Shown here in pieces: positions 43,416 to 50,070 of a stretch of 64,000 nucleotides of DNA. The DNA lies in contig CAUJHW010000005.1 of assembly GCA_963205005.1 (NCBI GenBank), forward strand, positions 1-64,000. Reading direction: 5' to 3'. Origin of the DNA: Pseudomonadota bacterium. GTDB taxonomy: Bacteria; Pseudomonadota; Alphaproteobacteria; Caulobacterales; Caulobacteraceae. A program made the translations under genes and the position numbers. The first letter of the stretch is position 1; every line of letters begins with the position of its first letter. Under the pieces are notes generated by a model. The model did no database searches, was not told the origin of the DNA, and saw nothing but the letters and a program-made list of their open reading frames with translations.

Positions 43416-44116
43416 CTGCGATCCGCTCGACCGTCTATCTGATATTGTTCAGCATCTGGACGACGGTGGTCGCCGTGGGCTTCACGCCGATCCTGTTCGG
43501 TCCGCGCCGCTGGTCGCACCGCATGTTCAACTTCTGGGGCAAGGGCGTGATCGCCCTGCTTGCCCTGGCAGGTGTGCGGGTCGAGGTGCGCGGGCGAGAA
43601 CACATTCCGACCGGCGCCGCTCTGGTCGCGCCCAAGCACCAGTGCATGCTGGACGTTTTCGCCCAGTTCACCTGGCTACCCGCCAACGCCTTCGTCATGA
43701 AGAAGGAACTGGCGTGGATCCCCTGGTTCGGCTGGTACGGGAAGAAGGCCGGGGCGATCGTCATCGACCGCGCAGGCGCGGCCAAGACCATGCGTCAGCT
43801 GATCCGCGAGGGGGTCGACCGCTTCAGTTGGGGCGCCCAGCTGGTGATCTTCCCGGAAGGCACCCGCCAGCCGATCGGCGCCGTTCCCGACTACAAGCCC
43901 GGCATCGCCGCGCTCTACAAGGAACTGAACGTGCCGGTGTATCCGGTGGCCACCAACGCGGGCGAGCACTGGTCGGCCAAGGGGCTCCGGCTGACCCCCG
44001 GCCTGATCGTCTACGAGTATCTTGAACCGATCCCGCCCGGCCTGAAGCGCGCCGAGTTCATGCGCCTGCTGGAAGAGCGCATCGAAGCAAAATCCAGGGA
44101 ACTGGAAGGGCTGTGA
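43412..44116 (+). CDS. plsC: 1-acyl-sn-glycerol-3-phosphate acyltransferase
   Basis: A 234-residue membrane acyltransferase of phospholipid synthesis, making phosphatidate from lysophosphatidate. The HX4D catalytic motif is in KHQCMLD, and the FPEGTR motif lies near residue 150. An N-terminal TM (about 7-30) and a second hydrophobic segment (about 45-60) anchor it. Start is GTG 43412, overlapping the DUF218 gene. Last gene of the ftsE-ftsX-DUF218-plsC unit; it ends just before a palindromic repeat. Confidence 0.92.
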   Translation: MTAIRSTVYLILFSIWTTVVAVGFTPILFGPRRWSHRMFNFWGKGVIALLALAGVRVEVRGREHIPTGAALVAPKHQCMLDVFAQFTWLPANAFVMKKELAWIPWFGWYGKKAGAIVIDRAGAAKTMRQLIREGVDRFSWGAQLVIFPEGTRQPIGAVPDYKPGIAALYKELNVPVYPVATNAGEHWSAKGLRLTPGLIVYEYLEPIPPGLKRAEFMRLLEERIEAKSRELEGL

Positions 44117-44118
44117 TT

Positions 44119-44252
44119 TTCCCACCCCTACTGGGGAAGGACAGACCGCAAAGCGGTCAGGGTGGGGATTTCAGGTTCAGGCGCCGCGCCCGGCCGCGAC
44201 TCCCCCACCCTGCCTGCCTCTGGCAGGCTGTCCCTCCCCGTTAAGGGAGGGA
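44119..44252. repeat. dispersed four-hairpin palindromic repeat, copy A
   Basis: About 134 bp between plsC and chaC. It has four hairpins in order: CCCC/GGGG (44125-44136), GACCGC-AAA-GCGGTC (44144-44158), CCTGCC-TCT-GGCAGG (44213-44227) and TCCCTCCC/GGGAGGGA (44231-44252). CAGGGTGGGG and CCCCACCCTG face each other across a central GC-rich loop, so the whole element is one large palindrome. The same architecture occurs inside asnB. Its right end provides the last codons and stop of chaC. Confidence 0.85.
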
Positions 44253-44774
44253 CTGGGCCTCCACCATTTCCAGCAGTCGCTCCATCGACGCATCCCGAAC
44301 GCCCATCTCGCGCAGGTGGGCCACCAGGTCGCGCAGGTAGTCGACATTGCGGCCCGAGAGACCGGCGGCGCCGGCGATCAGCGCCGCCTGATGTTCCAGG
44401 TCCAGGGCCCCGGCCCACTGGGGATGGCTCACGTCTGACAGGAAGGTGAGCGACTCGACGCGCCGCCCGTCGTCCAGCCGCACCGGCCGGCGCGCCTCGA
44501 TATAGGTCTCGGTCGGCTGTTCGCGCTCCAGGAGGTAGGCATAGGTCTCCGCCCAGTCGGCCTCGTCCACCCGGTAGGCCGCGCCCCGCACCGCGCCGCC
44601 GGGGGCCAGCCCCAGCACCAGCCCCGGACGATCGTAAGTGCCCCGGTGATGGACGGAATAGATGCAGAAGGCCCGGCGGCGTCCGTGTAAGGTGGCGGCC
44701 CGCCGCTCGGCGAACGGGAAGCCGGGACGCCACATCAGCGACCCGTATCCGAAGACCCACCGTTCCGCCGTCAT
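44241..44774 (-). CDS. chaC: ChaC-like gamma-glutamylcyclotransferase
   Basis: A 177-residue enzyme predicted to release 5-oxoproline from gamma-glutamyl peptides such as glutathione. The substrate loop is FGYGSLMWRPGF at residues 8-19. The conserved YLLEREQPTETYIEARR region and its Glu are present. The last codons (SLP-stop) are read from the outer arm of the palindromic repeat. It is divergent from the DUF2125 gene by 38 bp. Confidence 0.9.
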   Translation of the reverse strand: MTAERWVFGYGSLMWRPGFPFAERRAATLHGRRRAFCIYSVHHRGTYDRPGLVLGLAPGGAVRGAAYRVDEADWAETYAYLLEREQPTETYIEARRPVRLDDGRRVESLTFLSDVSHPQWAGALDLEHQAALIAGAAGLSGRNVDYLRDLVAHLREMGVRDASMERLLEMVEAQSLP

Positions 44775-47070: not shown

Positions 47071-47147
47071 TGGTAGCTGGAGGCGGGCTCGAACCGCCGA
47101 CCTGTGGGTTATGAATCCACCGCTCTAACCAGCTGAGCTACCCAGCC
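47071..47147 (-). tRNA. tRNA-Met (CAT), elongator type
   Basis: A 77-nt gene including an encoded CCA (plus-strand TGG at 47071-47073). The acceptor stem GGCTGGG pairs with TCCAGCT using G-U at both ends, the D-arm begins TAGCTCAG, the anticodon loop is TTCATAA, and the T-arm contains GGTTCGAGCC. Its A31-C39 pair in the anticodon stem is a mismatch. Sequence type fits elongator rather than initiator tRNA-Met (paired acceptor 1-72, no GGG/CCC anticodon-stem run). An Ile lysidine tRNA is less likely. Confidence 0.9.
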
Positions 47148-47245: not shown

Positions 47246-48274
47246 ATGAGCGTCCTCCACCTCCTGGGAACGGCCGGCGAAGGCGGGGCTGAAACCTACT
47301 TCGTCGACCTGGTGAAGGCGTTGAAGCGGGCGGGGGTTCCTGAGGCCTGCGCCATACGGGGCAACACGGCGCGGGAAACGCGGCTGGCCCGGGCTGGCGT
47401 GCCTGTGAAGGTGCTGCGCTTCGGCGGCCCCATCGACATCCTGACCCGCCCGGCCGCCGCCGGCTTCGCCTCGCTGCAGAAGACGAAGGTTGCGCTGGCC
47501 TGGATGAACCGCGCCGCCCGCCACACCCCGCGCGGTCCCTGGGCGCGGATCGGTCGGCTGGGCGGCTACTACAGCCTGAAATACTACAGGGGCTTCGATC
47601 ACCTGGTGGCGAACACCGAGGACATCGCAGAGTGGATCGTCAGCCAGGGATGGCCGGCCGGGAAGGTGTCCTGCATCCCCAATTTCGCCGCCGCCCCGCC
47701 ACAGGCCGAAGCGGTGGACCGCGCCAGCCTCGCTACGCCGCCGGACGTGCCGCTGCTGCTGGCTATGGGCCGGCTGCATGAGAATAAAGCCCACGACGTC
47801 AGCCTGCAGGCCCTCGTGCAGCTACCCGACGCCTGGCTGTGGATCGCCGGCGTAGGTCCGCTGGAGGCCAAGCTGCGCGGCATGGCCGAGGCCCTGGGCG
47901 TCGCCGACCGGGTGCGGTTCCTGGGGTGGCGCACCGATGCCTCGGCGCTCTACCGGACTGCGGATGTCTGCATCTTTCCGTCCCGTTTCGAGCCGCTGGG
48001 CAATGTGGTGATCCAGGCCTGGGCCCATGGCCTGCCGGTGGTCGCCGCCGCCAGCCAGGGACCCGGCGCCCTGATCCGCGAGGGCCAGGACGGCCTGCTG
48101 GTCCCCATCGATGACCCCGACGCCCTGGCCGGGGGCGCTCGCCGCCTGCTCGCCGATCAGGCCCTGCGCGCCCGCTTCGCCCGGGCAGGCGCAGCCCGCG
48201 TCGAGGCCGAGTTCTCCGAAGCCGCAGTCGTCGGCCAGTGGAAGGCGCTCTTCGCCGACTTCGGCGGCCTCTGA
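47246..48274 (+). CDS. glycosyltransferase family 4 protein
   Basis: A 342-residue GT-B fold glycosyltransferase. The N-terminal GTAGEGGAETYFVDLVKAL contains the acceptor-side glycine loop. The C-terminal part has LLLAMGRLHENKAHDVSLQAL, GPLEAKLRGMAEALGV and FPSRFEPLGNVVIQAWAHGLPVVA, where the nucleotide-sugar Glu motif reads EPLGNVVIQA. It is coupled to asnB by TGATG, suggesting work on an amidated or amino-acid-bearing glycan. Confidence 0.92.
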   Translation: MSVLHLLGTAGEGGAETYFVDLVKALKRAGVPEACAIRGNTARETRLARAGVPVKVLRFGGPIDILTRPAAAGFASLQKTKVALAWMNRAARHTPRGPWARIGRLGGYYSLKYYRGFDHLVANTEDIAEWIVSQGWPAGKVSCIPNFAAAPPQAEAVDRASLATPPDVPLLLAMGRLHENKAHDVSLQALVQLPDAWLWIAGVGPLEAKLRGMAEALGVADRVRFLGWRTDASALYRTADVCIFPSRFEPLGNVVIQAWAHGLPVVAAASQGPGALIREGQDGLLVPIDDPDALAGGARRLLADQALRARFARAGAARVEAEFSEAAVVGQWKALFADFGGL

Positions 48275-50070
48275 TGTGCGCCATCGCGGGGCAGCTGGGC
48301 GGAACGGACGCCGCCGCCGGCCCCATGATCCGCGCCCTCGCCCACCGCGGCCCTGACGGGATCCGCACCGAATCACTGCCAGGCGCGGAGCTCGCCCATG
48401 CCCGGCTGTCGATCATCGACCTGGATGGCGGCTGGCAGCCCCTGCACGCCGCCGGCGGCGTGGTGGTCGGCAACGGCGAGATCTACAACTATCTGGAAAT
48501 GGCCCGTGACCACGGCCTGGAGGGCCAGCTCTCCACCGGCTCCGACTTCGAGCCGCTGCTGCATCTGTACGCGCGCGAGGGCGAGGCCGCCTTCGCCCGC
48601 CTGCGCGGCATGTATGCCCTGTGCCTGATCGGTCCCGATGGCCGCGCGTGGCTGGCCCGCGACCCGTTCGGCATCAAGCCGCTCTACATCATGGAGCATG
48701 ACGGCGGCCTGGCCTTCGCCTCGGAACCCCGCGCCTTCTTCGCCGCCGGGCTGATGGCCCGGGTGCTGGACGACGACGCCGCCCGCGAACTGCTGGACCT
48801 CAACTACACGCTCGGTGAACGCACGGTATTCCAGGGCCTGCGCCGTCTGGCGCCGGGCGAGGTGGTCGAGGTGCGGGATGGCCGGATCATCTCGGGGCAT
48901 CGGCGCAGCCCGGTCCCTCCCTTAATGGGGAGGGACAGCTCGCCGAAGGCGAGCAGGGTGGGGGACTCAGGATCAAGCGCGGGGCCCGGACCTGACGCCC
49001 CCACCCTGACCGCTTCGCGGTCTGTCCCTCCTCACAAGGGGGAGGGAAATCTGGACGACGTCCTCGCCCATCTCGACGCCGTGCTGGAGAACTCTGTCGC
49101 CGTCCATCAGCGCGCGGACGTGCCCTACGGCCTTTTCCTGTCCGGCGGTATCGACTCCGCCGCCATCGCCACCCTGATGGCCCGGCTGAACAGCCGTCCG
49201 GTCACCGCCTTCACCTGCGGTTTCGACGCCCCCGGCGCGAAGGACGAGCGCGCCCAGGCCGAGCGGGTTGCCCGGGCTCTCGACCTCGACTGGCGCGAGA
49301 CCAACTTCGGTGAGGCGGATTTCTGGCGCATCCTGCCGCAGGTCGCCTGGGCGCTCGACGACCCCACCGCCGACTATGCCACCCTGCCCACCTACAAGCT
49401 CGCCGAGGCCGCAAAGGGTACGCTCACCGTCGTGCTCACGGGCGAGGGCGGCGACGAGCTCTTCGGCGGATACGGCCGCTATCGCCGCGCGCTCCGGCCC
49501 GGCTGGCTGGGCGGCCGCCCGGCTGAGCCCCGCGGCGCCCGTCCCGAGATTCTGGCCGCGTGGCGCGACGCCGCACGCGCGCCCCGCGGCGCCACGCCCT
49601 TGCAGGCCGCCCAATGGGCCGACATCGCCACCTGGCTACCCAACGATCTGCTGCTGAAGCTCGACCGCTGCCTGATGGCCCACGGTCTGGAGGGCCGTAC
49701 GCCGTTCCTCGATTCCGAGGTGGCCGCCTTCGCCTGGCCGCTCGCCGACCGGCTGAAGGTGCGCGGCGGCTACGGCAAGTGGATCCTGCGCAAGTGGCTG
49801 GAACGCGCCTGCCCCGCCGCCCAGCCCTGGGCGAAGAAACAGGGCTTCACCGTCCCGGTCGAGACCTGGATCGCCCCGCGCGCCGCCGACATCGCCGCCA
49901 ACCTGCCGAAGGTCGCCGCCGTCCGCCGCCTGATGGGCGATGAGGCTGCCGCACGGATGCTCACACCGGGCGCCGGCCGCTGGCCGCTGCTGTTCTTCGC
50001 CGTCTGGGCGCTGATCCATCTGGAGGGCGCCTCGCCTACGGACGCCCTGACAGCGATCTGCCCGGACTGA
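48274..50070 (+). CDS. asnB: asparagine synthetase (glutamine-hydrolysing) carrying an in-frame palindromic-repeat insert
   Basis: A 598-residue enzyme making asparagine or a related amide from glutamine and ATP. The Ntn glutaminase domain begins with nucleophile Cys2 (MCAIAG) and has LAHRGPDG. The synthetase domain has the PP-loop SGGIDS at about residues 290-295 and GEGGDELFGGYGRY. Residues 212-259 (SPVPPLMGRDSS...PPHKGEGN) are foreign to the family and are the translation of a 134-bp dispersed repeat placed in the interdomain linker. Without it the protein is about 550 residues, with both domains intact. Likely functional; acceptor could be a glycan amino acid. Confidence 0.92.
   Translation: MCAIAGQLGGTDAAAGPMIRALAHRGPDGIRTESLPGAELAHARLSIIDLDGGWQPLHAAGGVVVGNGEIYNYLEMARDHGLEGQLSTGSDFEPLLHLYAREGEAAFARLRGMYALCLIGPDGRAWLARDPFGIKPLYIMEHDGGLAFASEPRAFFAAGLMARVLDDDAARELLDLNYTLGERTVFQGLRRLAPGEVVEVRDGRIISGHRRSPVPPLMGRDSSPKASRVGDSGSSAGPGPDAPTLTASRSVPPHKGEGNLDDVLAHLDAVLENSVAVHQRADVPYGLFLSGGIDSAAIATLMARLNSRPVTAFTCGFDAPGAKDERAQAERVARALDLDWRETNFGEADFWRILPQVAWALDDPTADYATLPTYKLAEAAKGTLTVVLTGEGGDELFGGYGRYRRALRPGWLGGRPAEPRGARPEILAAWRDAARAPRGATPLQAAQWADIATWLPNDLLLKLDRCLMAHGLEGRTPFLDSEVAAFAWPLADRLKVRGGYGKWILRKWLERACPAAQPWAKKQGFTVPVETWIAPRAADIAANLPKVAAVRRLMGDEAAARMLTPGAGRWPLLFFAVWALIHLEGASPTDALTAICPD
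48914..49047. repeat. dispersed four-hairpin palindromic repeat, copy B, inside asnB
   Basis: Hairpins in order: TCCCTCCC/GGGAGGGA (left), GCTCGCC-GAA-GGCGAGC (48938-48954), GACCGC-TTC-GCGGTC (49008-49022) and CCCTCC/GGAGGG (right). CAGGGTGGGG (48954-48963) faces CCCCACCCTG (48999-49008). Order, spacing, orientation and core agree with copy A. The frame stays open through the element. Confidence 0.88.

Follow-up and report, generated by a model that had tools for sequence, protein, structure and literature searches.

How does a conserved enzyme of two domains come to carry, between them, a peptide that is the translation of a dispersed repeat? The window analysed here (the whole stretch of 64,000 nucleotides) encodes asnB, an asparagine synthase (glutamine-hydrolysing), at 48274..50070 (+), whose product of 598 aa, insert included, scores above the cut-off of TIGR01536 (NCBIfam). 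Pfam places the glutaminase domain GATase_7 at residues 42-156 (48397..48741, +) and the synthetase domain Asn_synthase at residues 267-563 (49072..49962, +), and a palindromic element of 134 nt, here family A, lies between them at 48914..49047 (+). A sequence-only reading of this DNA had equated residues 212-259 with the repeat; the in-frame translation stands, while the stated range overshot the element by two residues on the left and by one on the right, the element covering residue 214 (in part) to residue 258. Its placing of the element between the glutaminase and synthetase domains holds as well: both are intact, with Pfam domains on either side, and the frame is open from the ATG at 48274 as far as the stop, which ends at 50070. 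Judged by AsnB, the nearest named relatives are records of Phenylobacterium, and the host is a relative of this genus. At Rfam gathering thresholds a tRNA was the single match in the whole window, with none for the element; a tRNA gene lies at 47074-47147 (-), directly upstream of the glycosyltransferase open reading frame that precedes asnB.

An artefact of assembly or sequencing could also place a repeat inside a gene, as the host genome (G000; 4.25 Mb, 97% complete) is split into 183 contigs and assemblies may break at repeats. However, the insert sits inside a 141-kb contig, a similar insert occurs in the nearest relative, and inserts that keep the asnB frame open are found in independent assemblies, including G054, which has 2 contigs, and that of G004, a near relative. 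We give an artefact practically no credence, and a frame broken by a sequencing error, which would have told against the earlier reading, did not appear.

A dispersed cloverleaf palindrome

The element folds far better than its shuffled counterparts, both as RNA (z -8.72) and as single-stranded DNA (-49.6 kcal/mol, the shuffled sequences averaging -28.07; z -7.45), and none of 200 shuffles equalled it in either case. It had been described as four hairpins; the strong fold is confirmed, but the arrangement is better drawn as a cloverleaf, in which a long terminal inverted repeat, each arm of which can also form a hairpin, encloses three hairpins. From the sequence and the consensus structure, the left terminal arm (48914..48935, +; TCCCTCCC..GGGGAGGGA) can form its own hairpin and pairs with the right terminal arm (49025..49047, +). 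Consensus structure and fold both place inner hairpin 1 at 48938..48954, the central hairpin 2, with a variable loop, at 48955..49007, and hairpin 3, which shows both-sided changes between copies, at 49008..49022 (all +). The consensus of 25 full-length copies from the host's own genome contains 37 predicted pairs, 12 of which show pair-keeping changes on both sides in at least one copy. Terminal inverted repeats are present, as the outer stem in this consensus and as the TTTCCTCCCC/GGGGAGGAAA ends in a further family, D; beside these, TCCCTCCC/GGGAGGGA form another pair of element ends.

Family A is dispersed in G000. A search at E <= 0.001 gave 68 matches (40 of 84 candidates scored), many of them seen on both strands; merged by hand they make 37 places, a rough lower bound given the manual merging and the partial places, one of which is 21 nt. 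The window holds a second copy at 44120..44252 (-), matching at 80% over 44125-44252, which follows an acyltransferase open reading frame ending at 44116 and is intergenic save for the final 12 nt of an opposite-strand frame (44241-44774), which it shares. The sequence-only reading, which put this copy at 44119-44252 and took the element to be dispersed, was thus right in substance, with at least 37 places in G000. On one contig, three full-length copies lie within about 5 kb (G000:C134:25598-30659).

Two of the 37 places are shown to lie inside genes, by domain matches flanking a spanning frame: asnB and a 5-oxoprolinase/hydantoinase gene, where family A lies between Hydantoinase_A and Hydantoinase_B (locus L017, G000:C64:18767-18909). 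The Pfam scan covered ten long spanning frames in G000, of which one, the oxoprolinase, had domains on both sides. The suggestion that the repeat can spread through coding sequence holds for these two genic places and is too strong for family A as a whole. Additionally, 49 of 180 frames are open over 30 copies, and 24 of the 30 have fewer open frames than their base-shuffled mean, so the element is not built to be read.

The best descriptions of palindromes that code for protein come from Rickettsia and Wolbachia. According to reviews, Rickettsia palindromic elements are in-frame palindromes within Rickettsia genes, and the Caulobacter CcrM-associated intergenic repeats (CIR) lie strictly between genes and have stops in all frames (PMC10969869, PMC2229807); the R. 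japonica paper reports that insertions occupy identical positions in every Rickettsia orthologue compared (PMC3767692). The comparison with Rickettsia elements had already been drawn from the sequence, and it is apt as a way of working: both are palindromes of about 100-150 bp with a strong fold (here the 134-nt element), inserted in frame in genes for conserved proteins (here asnB and 5-oxoprolinase). By analogy, and by description rather than sequence alignment, family A seems to work like the Rickettsia elements, but in a GC-rich environmental lineage of Caulobacteraceae, with most copies outside genes and with several families re-using one linker. Among the listed titles and abstract openings of open-licence full texts, none reports coding palindromes in Caulobacteraceae.

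Other repeat classes resemble family A in part. CIR are likewise dispersed palindromes of more than 100 bp in Caulobacter and relatives; by their description, they are confined to intergenic DNA, have stop codons in all six frames and carry a GANTC site. Membership of CIR was rejected against that description, as only 13 of 30 family A copies carry the GANTC (CcrM) site and two copies are intragenic. MITEs are also short, lack coding capacity of their own, have terminal inverted repeats and sometimes form in-frame fusions; here, by contrast, comparisons of insert-free with filled sites gave no clear, clean target duplication. REP elements of the REP/RAYT type are dispersed hairpins, and single-hairpin states occur here too, although the present units are longer cloverleaves. 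A RAYT-type transposase was rejected as the mobiliser: Y1_Tnp has no match in G000 (97% complete) and is patchy in the genus, with matches at E <= 0.001 in 20 of 101 genomes, 18 of which pass the cut-off.

Probable repeated entry into one linker

A strong asnB match was found in 95 of 101 genomes of the genus, and 89 loci were read, leaving out six fragmentary genomes. Measured from PGE to LDAVLE, the linker is 36-42 aa long in 62 of the 89 genes and 48-86 aa in the other 27. By eye, the 27 long linkers divide into family A (8), family B (7), the B-like family D (4), family C (3) and others (5). Families A, B and C are also found by a genus-wide DNA search (101 genomes, E <= 1e-5) in 45, 68 and 58 genomes respectively, with copy numbers that are lower bounds because eight candidates were scored per genome. 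Fold z falls below -3 in 20 of the 27 long linkers versus 2 of the 62 short ones, whose median is -0.07; measured by this threshold, the remaining seven long linkers are no better folded than shuffles. In the particular case of the G083 asnB (L041), a 69-aa linker has no palindrome (z 0.57) and may descend from an eroded insert or have another origin.

As a control, internal inserts of at least 20 aa were counted around asnB and are found in 9 of 34 asnB sequences versus 0 of 98 sequences from seven neighbouring gene families (33 loci, L127-L159, plus the window, which contributed seven of the 98). Beyond the genus, a wider family search matched 105 of 249 genomes, 49 of them from other genera as counted by hand, and 11 loci were read. 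These were returned for full-length alignment, which biases the sample towards long linkers; by eye, seven of the 11 linkers from other Caulobacteraceae genera are clearly palindromic, L205 is partly so and L200 and L203 are not, while the boundaries drawn for L208 were wrong. Neither the 89 genus linkers nor these 11 contain the same residues without the repeat, the case that would have spoken against capture. In-frame capture of a dispersed palindrome between conserved domains, as first read from the sequence, is borne out. The notion of one insertion event fares less well: the window insert is real, and the same linker appears, from families assigned by eye, to have been entered repeatedly and by several families.

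On a quick tree of the 89 asnB genes with the linker columns removed, the occurrence of inserts is scattered. Presence of a long linker requires at least 16 changes, six of them forced by starred branches, and six insert classes require at least 24. The 20 strongly folding inserts (z < -3) require at least 14, or 11 once 11 rows that are ambiguous or scars have been removed. Placing these 20 insert-bearers in a single clade costs 785 log-likelihood units and was rejected. Counts of this kind cannot separate gain from loss. As read from the sequences, the case for gain rests on one species, G008, whose family D insert lies within a group (SH-aLRT 100) in which the other four genes are insert-free; these sisters have domains 92-95% identical and linkers of 38 aa. 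The G008 insert is 93% identical over 131/131 nt to a copy elsewhere in its own genome (G008:C76), and the likeness ends sharply at TTTCCTCCCC..GGGGAGGAAA. The B insert of G034 likewise has its two best further matches within the same genome, at 84% over the full length of the query. The window insert matches its best own-genome copy at 83% versus 82% for the asnB copy of its nearest relative, G004; the own-genome copy being hardly closer, this insert may be older and common to G004.

Apparently collapsed states occur as well. Single terminal hairpins stand in the short linkers L049 and L080 (z < -3) and, by eye, in L052 and L054. A parallel is found at one intergenic place, which we take from recognition of the sequence to be the ruvA-ruvB junction (L239, L248): G008 has a full family D element there and G068 a single terminal hairpin, and the corresponding place in G066, G038 and G009 has neither. 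These states could also be explained by one ancient insertion in the linker, inherited and often deleted, whose families were switched by gene conversion through CCTCCC/GGGAGG arms. Families A, B and D have such arms in common (by eye), the single-hairpin linkers and the two states at the presumed ruvA-ruvB junction would fit a history of deletion, and L021 and L022 probably carry one common insert. However, the ends of family C differ, G008 is nested with full support among insert-free genes and has its near-identical copy elsewhere in the genome, and the shuffle-like folding of short linkers leaves most of them without trace of an earlier palindrome. We consider a single ancient insertion improbable.

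Repeated, tolerated capture and decay of palindromic repeats in the asnB linker is, in our judgement, very probably the explanation. A resident, normally non-coding repeat of about 115-140 bp, with discrete ends and terminal inverted repeats, would have landed in the linker of asnB, and we propose that the insert persisted since its length and reading frame allow uninterrupted translation. In Caulobacteraceae, several repeat families would have entered this linker, on many occasions. Movement may depend on an enzyme acting in trans. Elements would later be lost by erosion or by collapse to a single terminal hairpin, the latter possibly through recombination of one palindromic end with the other. 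Resemblance between the linker and the element ends is not supported as the mark of the target: with three end pairs compared between the linker and the rest of the gene in 60 insert-free genes, 38%, 52% and 28% of equal-width windows elsewhere score as well.

Effect on the protein and a second linker

What such an insert does to the enzyme can be approached from prediction and from rates of change. In the AlphaFold2 model, built with 26 aligned sequences, residues 213-257 have pLDDT below 50, with the domains mostly better and weak stretches at 48-51, 391-407 and 450-457. Between the window gene and its nearest relative (L021/L022), dN/dS rises from about 0.10 in the domains to 0.32 in the insert region. 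Nine pairs were compared, and in each the insert region is under weaker constraint than the domains, although pairs from different families are not homologous in that region. Filled linkers are also short of native sequence: 22-28 native codons are left in seven A inserts whose ends the script found (those of the eighth, L034, it did not), versus 37.9 on average for 60 insert-free linkers, so that about 10-15 codons are missing, which may have been replaced at insertion or lost later. On the simplest reading, the insert peptide is a disordered, tolerated spacer outside the folded domains, and its presence would be near-neutral for the enzyme.

Inserts might instead be kept as a useful peptide or hairpin, acting in mRNA regulation, domain spacing or protein interaction. 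Re-use of the asnB site, the existence of a similar oxoprolinase linker and dN/dS below 1 in plausibly homologous insert regions are compatible with such a role. The inserts nevertheless differ in sequence and family, 62 of the 89 genes manage with short linkers, and the region is predicted to be disordered and is the less constrained part in 9/9 pairs, which makes retention for a function very unlikely. We return to tolerated capture as the preferred reading.

The interdomain linker of 5-oxoprolinase appears, on sequence evidence, as a second re-used site. Among the best 30 of 96 matching genomes (L168-L197), this linker is 71-100 aa long and folds at z < -3 in 20 of 30, and by eye several different palindromic families occupy it in relatives. 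The host's own oxoprolinase linker (L168) folds weakly (z -1.34), and its element was recognised by sequence, at 73% over 134 nt. A family C peptide search in the genus found matches in 16 of 101 genomes, with five matches in oxoprolinase loci (of 30 loci from this search, nine with a match near a contig end were skipped). As a tentative generalization, which we hold to be possible rather than probable, the interdomain linkers of asparagine synthetase and 5-oxoprolinase may be standing landing pads in Caulobacteraceae, where families enter, replace about 10 native codons, collapse and are replaced, such that the linker would evolve mainly by turnover of selfish repeats and not by point mutation.

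In a further difference from the Rickettsia elements, one and the same linker is found without insert, filled, switched or collapsed in related environmental species. The coexistence of these states allows direct tests of the way in which selfish DNA gives rise to protein sequence, of a linker's tolerance and of the means by which the palindromes move. As a separate observation on family B, four half-element matches lie at a regular spacing of 272-273 nt in another genome (G099:C2:428843-429709), as if a longer hairpin-bearing unit were arranged in tandem.
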